Of a stretch of DNA of 46,467 bases, positions 1,938-2,331 are shown piece by piece; position 1 is the stretch's first letter, and each line of letters starts with the position of its first letter. Under the pieces are notes generated by a model. That model did no database searches and was not told the DNA's origin. It worked only from the letters and a program-made list of their open reading frames with translations. Made by a program: the position numbers and the translations under genes. The stretch spans positions 1 through 46,467 of IMG/VR virus record IMGVR_UViG_3300045921_000220; one strand, written 5' to 3'. This stretch comes from a virus.

Positions 1938-2061
1938 TCGGGAAGGTTGGATTCGAACCAACGACAACGCGCTTATGATGCGATAACCTTCATCAGTCGG
2001 CTGTCTCCAGCAATTTGGCGACGAAGACCTTTACGTGCTCTATCCACTGAGCTACTTCCCG
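1938..2061 (-). tRNA. tRNA(CAT) with a 51-nt insert in the anticodon stem
   Basis: The 5' half is 2034-2061 (acceptor CGGGAAG plus D-arm). The 3' half is 1938-1982 (loop ATCATAA, T-arm GTTGG/CCAAC, acceptor CTTCCCG, discriminator A, encoded CCA). Removing 1983-2033 restores a perfect CGCGC/GCGCG anticodon stem and a standard 5-nt variable loop. The insert lies after nucleotide 28. It contains a GCTG-GAGA-CAGC hairpin inside longer complementary arms and ends GGTTAT. Its sequence is shared with the next tRNA. Met or Ile identity is not resolved. Confidence 0.8.
1983..2033 (-). other. intron-like insert, copy A (51 nt)
   Basis: On the minus strand it begins TAAAGGTCTTCGTCGCC and ends with the shared block CAGCCG...GGTTAT. 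Nested pairing CTTC/GAAG, GTCG/CGAC and GCTG/CAGC around a GAGA (GNRA) loop is visible. It is too short for a known group I or II intron and is not at the canonical 37/38 intron site. Confidence 0.6.
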
Positions 2062-2203
2062 ATGTCTACTGTATTCAACAACCGTAACGGTATCTTGACA
2101 CCGTGTTTCTCCAGATACTTGCAGTAGTGTTCCCACAATGATTGAGATTCTTCCTCACAAGCATCTTGCCACTGCTGTTCAATCCAGTGTTCGGACATTT
2201 TGG

Positions 2204-2331
2204 TGGACCGGGTTGGATTCGAACCAACGACCTACGGCTTAATAGGCGATAACCCTCACCTAACGGCTGTTGCCAGCAAAATGGGCGGTGAAGACCATTT
2301 GTACGTTGCTCTGCCACTGAGCTACCGATCC
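2204..2331 (-). tRNA. tRNA-Asn-like (ATT) with a 56-nt insert in the anticodon stem
   Basis: The 5' half is 2304-2331 (acceptor GGATCGG, D-arm). The 3' half is 2204-2247 (loop CTATTAA, T-arm, acceptor CCGGTCC, discriminator A, encoded CCA). Excising 2248-2303 gives a perfect ACGGC/GCCGT stem and a 5-nt variable loop. The anticodon would be ATT, i.e. an Asn loop with A34 in place of G34, which is very unusual in bacteria. The insert is homologous to that in the CAT tRNA. Confidence 0.75.
2248..2303 (-). other. intron-like insert, copy B (56 nt)
   Basis: It shares GGTCTTC, CGCC, TTGCTGG, ACAGCCG and GGTTATC with copy A in the same order. The arms CTTCACC and GGTGAGG pair over 7 bp, enclosing a GCTG-GCAA-CAGC hairpin with a GNRA loop. 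The covarying arms support a conserved RNA structure. Confidence 0.6.

Follow-up and report, generated by a model that had tools for sequence, protein, structure and literature searches.

Y RNAs are the stem-loop partners of Ro60, and some of them carry a tRNA-like head. Human Y5 RNA reads GGUCCGA..GGGUUAUU and ..CUUGAC... Circularly permuted tRNA genes of red algae and archaea contain bulge-helix-bulge introns, which are cut by EndA. As described in two reports on Ro60 recognition, the Ro60 site is a helix with one bulged cytidine that is held by a G-C pair and has a wobble nearby (PMC4726728, PMC8973356), and human RNY5 additionally needs a UUAU motif at positions 22-25 (PMC8973356). YrlA, as outlined in PMC8394870, consists of a stem formed by its two ends and a domain resembling tRNA in its D, T, and acceptor arms, with no anticodon arm named in that outline, and the idea of YrlA as a competitor is raised in PMC7790460. 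Phage Y RNAs are already known in general, from literature cited by PMC12282133 and PMC7765460. In Lak megaphages, tRNA introns were found with eukaryotic tRNAscan settings, one of them possibly encoding a tRNA, and the passage that describes them gives no mechanism (PMC6784885); by this description, which is the basis of the comparison, they resemble the present case as unexplained inserts in phage tRNAs. In the open-access literature, we found no permuted or Y-bearing phage tRNAs, no such stem inside non-permuted tRNA genes, and no such units that retain the anticodon arm.

The window analyzed here is the whole stretch of 46,467 nucleotides that makes up IMG/VR virus record IMGVR_UViG_3300045921_000220. 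Proteins encoded at 10597-12480, 25466-31947, and 41833-43026 match ribonucleotide reductase, a DnaB-like helicase, a UvsX-like recombinase, DNA polymerase, and a porphyrin-biosynthesis family, and judging by its protein matches the window would belong to a large tailed phage. A megablast search of the window against the phage collection gave no relative apart from one tRNA-Asn.

The initial annotation had reported two tRNA genes with homologous inserts of 51 and 56 nt in the anticodon stem, and this is borne out by direct reading of the minus strand (Table 1, copies 1 and 2). Copy 1 (2061-1935) reads CGGGAAG-TA-GCTC..GAGC-A-CG^[51 nt]^CGC-ATCATAA-GCGCG..CTTCCCG-ACCA and copy 2 (2331-2201) reads GGATCGG-TA-GCTC..GAGC-A-ACG^[56 nt]^GC-CTATTAA-GCCGT..CCGGTCC-ACCA; in each, the acceptor stem has 7 bp and ACCA comes next. 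Without 1983-2033 and 2248-2303, both tRNAs have, as had been claimed, a perfect anticodon stem (5 bp), U33, and a standard variable loop (5 nt), and the anticodons are CAT and ATT. The five shared sequence blocks, the GCTG-GNRA-CAGC hairpin with its GAGA and GCAA loops, and the outer arm were all found as first described. The insertion site, which had been placed at positions 28-30, does lie in the stem but is not identical in the two genes, being 28/29 in copy 1 and 29/30 in copy 2, and the 3′ border of the insert is GGTTAT^C in the former versus GGTTATC^ in the latter. ARAGORN run without introns calls neither of the two tRNAs; with introns allowed, it calls both and places the intron elsewhere. 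At Rfam gathering thresholds, only ordinary tRNAs are matched in the window, and copies 1 and 2 are not among them. The free-energy fold of copy 1 by itself lacks the proposed stem, and single window copies fold with z values of −0.6 to −2.2; the structure is not decided by such folds.

Both inserted tRNA genes are thus real, but they are only two of five copies of the element within 2 kb. Three further minus-strand copies, at 2389, 2740, and 3961, came to light in a search for the common end GGTTATC. The strict pattern AGCCGN{3,16}GGTTATC has four minus-strand matches in the window, no plus-strand match, and no match when the pattern is reversed; the copy at 2740 falls outside it because its spacer is short. 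Both topologies are directly observed in the DNA: in copies 3 to 5, the 3′ strand of the insert, strand B (..AGC-CG-N9-GGTTATC), comes first, followed by a tRNA-like piece and then by the 5′ strand of the insert, strand A ((T)AAAAC..ACTTG[CT]T..), and the end of strand A is complementary to the start of strand B in every case. This pairing was checked in copy 3, the tRNA-like piece of which goes hardly beyond an anticodon hairpin. In copy 4, B GGAAGTGGCAAGC pairs with A GCTTGCCGCTTCC, and the piece in between is a whole tRNA with its 3′ half ahead of its 5′ half and a UUCG loop replacing the acceptor end. The P2-side spacer of copy 4 is 7 nt shorter than in its relatives L008 and L011, with the gap lying between two GAT repeats, and the missing 7 nt are possibly a recent deletion. 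In copy 5, B GGTAAGC pairs with A GCTTACC.

Table 1. Copies of the two-strand element in the window and short Y RNA candidates at other phage loci
Feature	Position	Strand	Description
Copy 1, tRNA-like gene	1935..2061	−	anticodon CAT, 7-bp acceptor stem, encoded ACCA; putative Y stem in anticodon stem at 28/29
Insert of copy 1	1983..2033	−	51 nt: strand A TAAAGGTCTTCGTCGCCAAATTGCTG, GAGA loop, strand B CAGCCGACTGATGAAGGTTAT
Strand-B core of copy 1	1982..2002	−	conserved AGCCG..GGTTATC; proposed Ro60 site with bulged C and UUAU
Copy 2, tRNA-like gene	2201..2331	−	anticodon ATT, encoded ACCA; putative Y stem at 29/30
Insert of copy 2	2248..2303	−	56 nt: both strands as in copy 1, closed by a GCAA tetraloop
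Strand-B core of copy 2	2248..2268	−	conserved
Copy 3	2334..2411	−	permuted: strand B (..AGTGACAGCCGATAGGTGGATGGTTATC), short loop with anticodon-arm-like hairpin TCAA-CTGTTAA-TTGA, strand A (..CGCCGAACAACTTGCTGTTCACT)
Strand-B core of copy 3	2383..2404	−	conserved
Copy 4	2627..2758	−	circularly permuted tRNA-like unit, anticodon GCA, UUCG-closed acceptor; 83.7 bits; YrlA 27.1 bits
Copy 5	3884..3984	−	permuted: T-arm and acceptor-like stem closed by UUCG, no anticodon arm; 37 bits
Strand-B core of copy 5	3955..3975	−	conserved
Short Y RNA candidate without tRNA domain (A3Wally)	L334:2507-2589		upstream of phage Ro60
Short Y RNA candidate without tRNA domain	L323:1027-1101		upstream of phage Ro60
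Short Y RNA candidate without tRNA domain	L324:869-943		upstream of phage Ro60
Short Y RNA candidate without tRNA domain	L324:1713-1786		upstream of phage Ro60

The prediction that the same insert would be found in other phage tRNAs holds, and the element proved to be widespread in IMG/VR pattern scans and viral loci. Three such scans returned 8, at least 119, and 20 stretches, the second with many chance matches inside protein genes. The two-strand stem recurs there mostly as permuted tRNA-like units and with strong covariation. In the window and the viral loci together, 98 sites were confirmed by a paired T-arm downstream, and at 85 of them strand B has a strong partner for the outer helix (P1) further downstream, which corresponds to the permuted order; when the downstream pairing was required to beat the upstream one and duplicates were removed, 73 permuted units were retained. 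Linear copies like copies 1 and 2 are also present in L008, L011, L020, L023, L049, L088, and L254. The carrier contigs reach up to 462 kb. A pattern scan of genome contigs gave at least 120 stretches, which are probably mostly chance matches, and only L254, a locus of Plectonema, was taken further. Three variants have either a small extra hairpin in strand A or an absent or substituted anticodon arm: L005:4157 (minus strand), in which the anticodon arm is absent, L108:4885 (minus strand), and L014:1798. Related phages also have a predicted tmRNA gene with the tag ANSNVLAMAA (L005:10966-11330 and L006:12741-13102).

The element is one rod, composed of P1 beginning with G-Y-U/A-G-C, an internal loop, a second helix P2, and, where it meets the tRNA, unpaired UUAUC and AAAAC. 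The internal loop has C-G-A.. on the B side and ..ACUU on the A side. Both the structure and its covariation are direct observations. Beyond the first three pairs, strands A and B of the same unit form a mean of 5.99 contiguous P1 pairs in the 73 units, compared to 1.69 after shuffling (maximum 2.15 in 2000 shuffles). Since strand A had been chosen by pairing, an identical search was run with foreign B strands as a control, and a score of at least 10.5 was reached in 59 of 98 cases with the own B strand versus 104 of 1933 with a foreign one. Of the 73 units, 43 were aligned; in this alignment, 96.1% of the cells in P1, T-arm, acceptor, and D-arm together are paired, double-sided changes occupy 312 cells compared to a shuffled mean of 88.7, and the covariation score is 0.849, compared to 0.085-0.185 for slid structures. 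The support for P2, formed by strand A with the N9 region of strand B, is weaker than that for P1 (own 6.75 versus 5.42, with a null maximum of 5.86).

The features of this rod suggest a Ro60-binding Y RNA stem. A C directly follows the P1-paired AGC and is bulged next to a C-G pair, the Y of GYU is free to form a nearby wobble, ACUUG lies opposite, and UUAU follows at a distance of 12-13 nt from the bulged C in 88 of the 98 sites. The GGUCCGA..GGGUUAUU and ACUUGAC segments of human Y5 are similar in sequence. The bulged cytidine, the G-C pair, the nearby wobble, and UUAU are likewise shared with vertebrate Y RNAs as represented by RNY5 in PMC8973356 and PMC4726728. Unlike the phage units, vertebrate Y RNAs have no tRNA-like domain and are made by RNA polymerase III, and they show a three-nucleotide bulge where the phage element has a larger internal loop.

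YrlA (RF02553), a partner of Rsr/Ro60, is similar in its end-to-end stem, in an internal loop whose 3′ side has AACUUG, in its tRNA-like D and T arms with a closed acceptor (as in copy 4, the 43 aligned units, and most relatives), and, in many carriers, in the position of the gene beside Ro60. In the cmscan output, the internal loop of the YrlA consensus shows aAcUuG on the side where the phage element has its ACUUG, whereas the strand-B side of the loop differs. In contrast to YrlA, copies 1 and 2 are not permuted and hold the stem within a tRNA gene with an open, CCA-bearing end, most phage units retain the anticodon arm, and several different units occur per genome. Because the YrlA model scores only 27.1 bits for copy 4 and 33-39 bits for its relatives, below the gathering threshold of 69, the phage units are not filed in RF02553, although they look as if they work like YrlA. 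The element could provisionally be regarded as a new form of the known bacterial Y RNAs. Circularly permuted tRNA genes of red algae and archaea also have the 3′ half before the 5′ half and ends joined by a helix, but they differ from the phage units, which carry a putative Y stem, combine anticodons with mismatched bodies, and come without EndA in the 24 carrier records searched for it.

The co-occurrence and adjacency of the element with Ro60 genes were directly observed. Of 29 carrier records, 26 encode Ro60 (TROVE, PF05731), compared to none of 18 element-free controls, which comprise ten contigs brought in by chance matches and eight isolates that are large or rich in tRNAs, T4 and phiKZ among them. 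Twenty controls had been intended; A3Wally and Magritte were wrongly included as element-free and were dropped, as both proved TROVE-positive and to carry the element beside or near Ro60. No Ro60 gene is present in the 46-kb window or in three of the 29 carrier records, all of which may be fragments. The closest relatives of the window, G001 and G002, do encode Ro60, approximately 35 kb from the nearest unit, and the stretches around the Ro60 gene of G001, G002, G010, G015, G019, and G020 contain no convincing unit. Considering the fetched loci alone, 11 of 21 records have TROVE and the nearest unit no more than 1.5 kb apart. With the genome-wide pattern and extra stretches, Ro60 is also preceded by further units in G008, G012, Phosso, and Phabba, and by one at about 3 kb upstream in A3Wally.

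Isolated phages with units were found by blastn using the arrays. In FuzzBuster, a unit lies directly ahead of a gene annotated as Ro-like RNA binding protein, the product of which matches Deinococcus Rsr (2nvo, E 1e-118) and vertebrate Ro60 (1yvp) over nearly its whole length; the neighbor is annotated likewise in Faust and Magritte, and in SM23 it is annotated as RNA-binding protein and matches TROVE. Just upstream of some phage Ro60 genes, there are also short stem-loops composed of the A and B strands only, with no tRNA (Table 1), which by comparison resemble classical Y RNAs. In Magritte, three Y RNA-like units stand in tandem just ahead of the Ro-like gene, and an annotated tRNA-Arg(tct) at 76028-76104 (L285/L320) is contained in one of them; this tRNA is probably a Y RNA under a wrong label. 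In the cyanobacterium Plectonema radiosum NIES-515, a contig (L254:1-600, L319:2740-3580) has tRNA-like genes in tandem, and in four of these the non-permuted insert is clear. They lie directly upstream of TROVE, which is on the same strand and starts about 35 nt past the last tRNA-like gene. ARAGORN found no tRNA in the 8-kb Plectonema locus L254, which holds most of this array. This linear tandem array is the best evidence that the linear inserts of the window also belong with Ro60.

The initial annotation had left two readings open, namely a new class of tRNA intron and an insertion retained in the mature RNA, and the latter is now favored, whereas the former is less probable. As an intron, the A/B stem would be excised, either by self-splicing or by enzymatic cutting with sealing by a phage RNA ligase, and the linear copies would give tRNAs directly while the permuted ones would give circular precursors opened by RNase P, as do the permuted tRNAs of Cyanidioschyzon. 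This is in agreement with the finding that the rotated and joined halves are called as tRNAs by ARAGORN in 55 of 73 permuted units, with scores of at least 115 for 36 of 73 own joins versus 5 of 292 joins of halves from different loci; the remaining 18 units yield no tRNA, which speaks against it. Among these 55 units, the best junction, which leaves a 5-bp anticodon stem, falls exactly at the ends of the element in 31, where a random choice would do so in 4%, and NCCA opens 8 of the 73 permuted linkers; both findings would be unexpected if the tRNA never matures. The ARAGORN ranking of splice sites contains ties at several positions (28/29, 27/28, 29/30, and the anticodon loop), and no single junction rule is proved. 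Among the 24 carrier records searched for enzymes, a ligase of the T4 Rnl1 type is found in eight (G007, G008, G010, G012, G014, G015, G016, and G020), including all five above 275 kb, and an Rnl2-type ligase exceeds the cut-off in eight, which would suit an intron. The same 24 records contain neither tRNA splicing endonuclease (PF01974), a count that covers the phage records, nor RtcB, which was therefore dropped as the sealing enzyme. No splicing enzyme is common to these carriers, and the gene that they do share is Ro60. The occurrence of the stem in tRNA-free short RNAs beside Ro60 also argues against an intron, as do the tRNA bodies: of 34 units scoring at least 115 with an assigned isotype, eight have a Ser or Leu anticodon and a located variable loop, and none of these eight has a long variable arm. 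Several units with differing anticodons even have one body (TTTCT-NNN-AAAAAG) in common. The permuted units are tRNA-shaped and not matched to an amino acid, and with the long variable arms missing they would be mimics rather than decoders. On balance, a new tRNA intron appears unlikely, and only slightly less so than a variant in which the Y stem would be a splicing device assisted by Ro60, which, together with a phage RNA ligase where present, would remove it at 28/29; we have little confidence in the latter. If it were true, linear copies would give tRNAs directly and permuted ones circular pre-tRNAs, and these phages would hold a whole tRNA gene set that is missed by tRNA finders and matured by a previously unknown Ro60 pathway.

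The inserts sit in tRNAs, as would a minimal group I or group II intron or an archaeal-type bulge-helix-bulge intron, and AGCCG..CGGTT is superficially like the base of group II domain V. This likeness was dropped, as AGC pairs in P1 with the other strand. The judgment that the insert is too short for group I or II agrees with our data, given a total length of 51-56 nt and no intron family among the Rfam matches. For a bulge-helix-bulge intron, EndA is missing from the 24 records and both splice sites are at one end of one helix rather than in opposite bulges. Group I, group II, hammerhead, and bulge-helix-bulge candidates were thus dropped on size, lack of an Rfam match, and the position of both splice sites at one helix end, and membership in the known intron classes seems extremely improbable. 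Decaying tRNA pseudogenes invaded by a functionless mobile hairpin would explain why some copies look damaged, such as copy 4 with its shortened spacer, copy 5 without D and anticodon arms, and L005:4157. However, P1, T-arm, acceptor, and D-arm covary strongly across very different phages, loop sequences and spacing are conserved, and the link to Ro60 is near-constant, and decay is therefore considered very unlikely.

The most probable explanation, in which we have good though not complete confidence, is that a Y RNA module was inserted into tRNAs and stays in them, so that the RNAs would be tRNA mimics or decoys bound by Ro60 rather than carriers of a new self-splicing intron. The two-strand stem, with P1, the internal loop with a bulged C opposite ACUUG, P2, and UUAUC, would bind the phage Ro60 ring protein. 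In copies 1 and 2, the module would interrupt the anticodon stem of tRNA genes whose acceptor ends are open and bear CCA, and in copies 3 to 5 the outer P1 ends would be the 5′ and 3′ ends of the RNA itself, with a closed tRNA-like piece as the loop in the fashion of YrlA. The module would most likely be kept, not spliced. While Ro60 would hold the stem, the tRNA-like body, often with an anticodon arm, would present a tRNA mimic that, in line with proposals made for YrlA, might tether tRNA-binding proteins or compete for them, such as PNPase, modification enzymes, or host anticodon nucleases; the kept anticodon arms and the many anticodons per phage would fit a bait for anticodon nucleases best. 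Co-occurrence with Ro60 is not binding, and the retention of the insert and a function as tether or decoy are what the data suggest. The exact 5-bp stem on excision and the NCCA linkers are not well explained by retention; they could be leftovers of an origin from true tRNAs, could reflect the need for a perfect anticodon arm, or could result from splicing.

A putative Ro60-binding stem is now seen in tRNA genes of ordinary appearance and in permuted tRNA-like families whose anticodons look genuine, across many phages and in at least one cyanobacterium. These units escape standard tools or are mislabelled by them, one of them seemingly being annotated as a tRNA-Arg in phage Magritte. FuzzBuster, Phabba, Faust, A3Wally, and Phosso are isolated phages with both the units and Ro60. 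With them, the reason for the presence of Ro60 in large phages can be tested directly, be it for decoys against anticodon nucleases, for PNPase tethers, or for tRNA repair.
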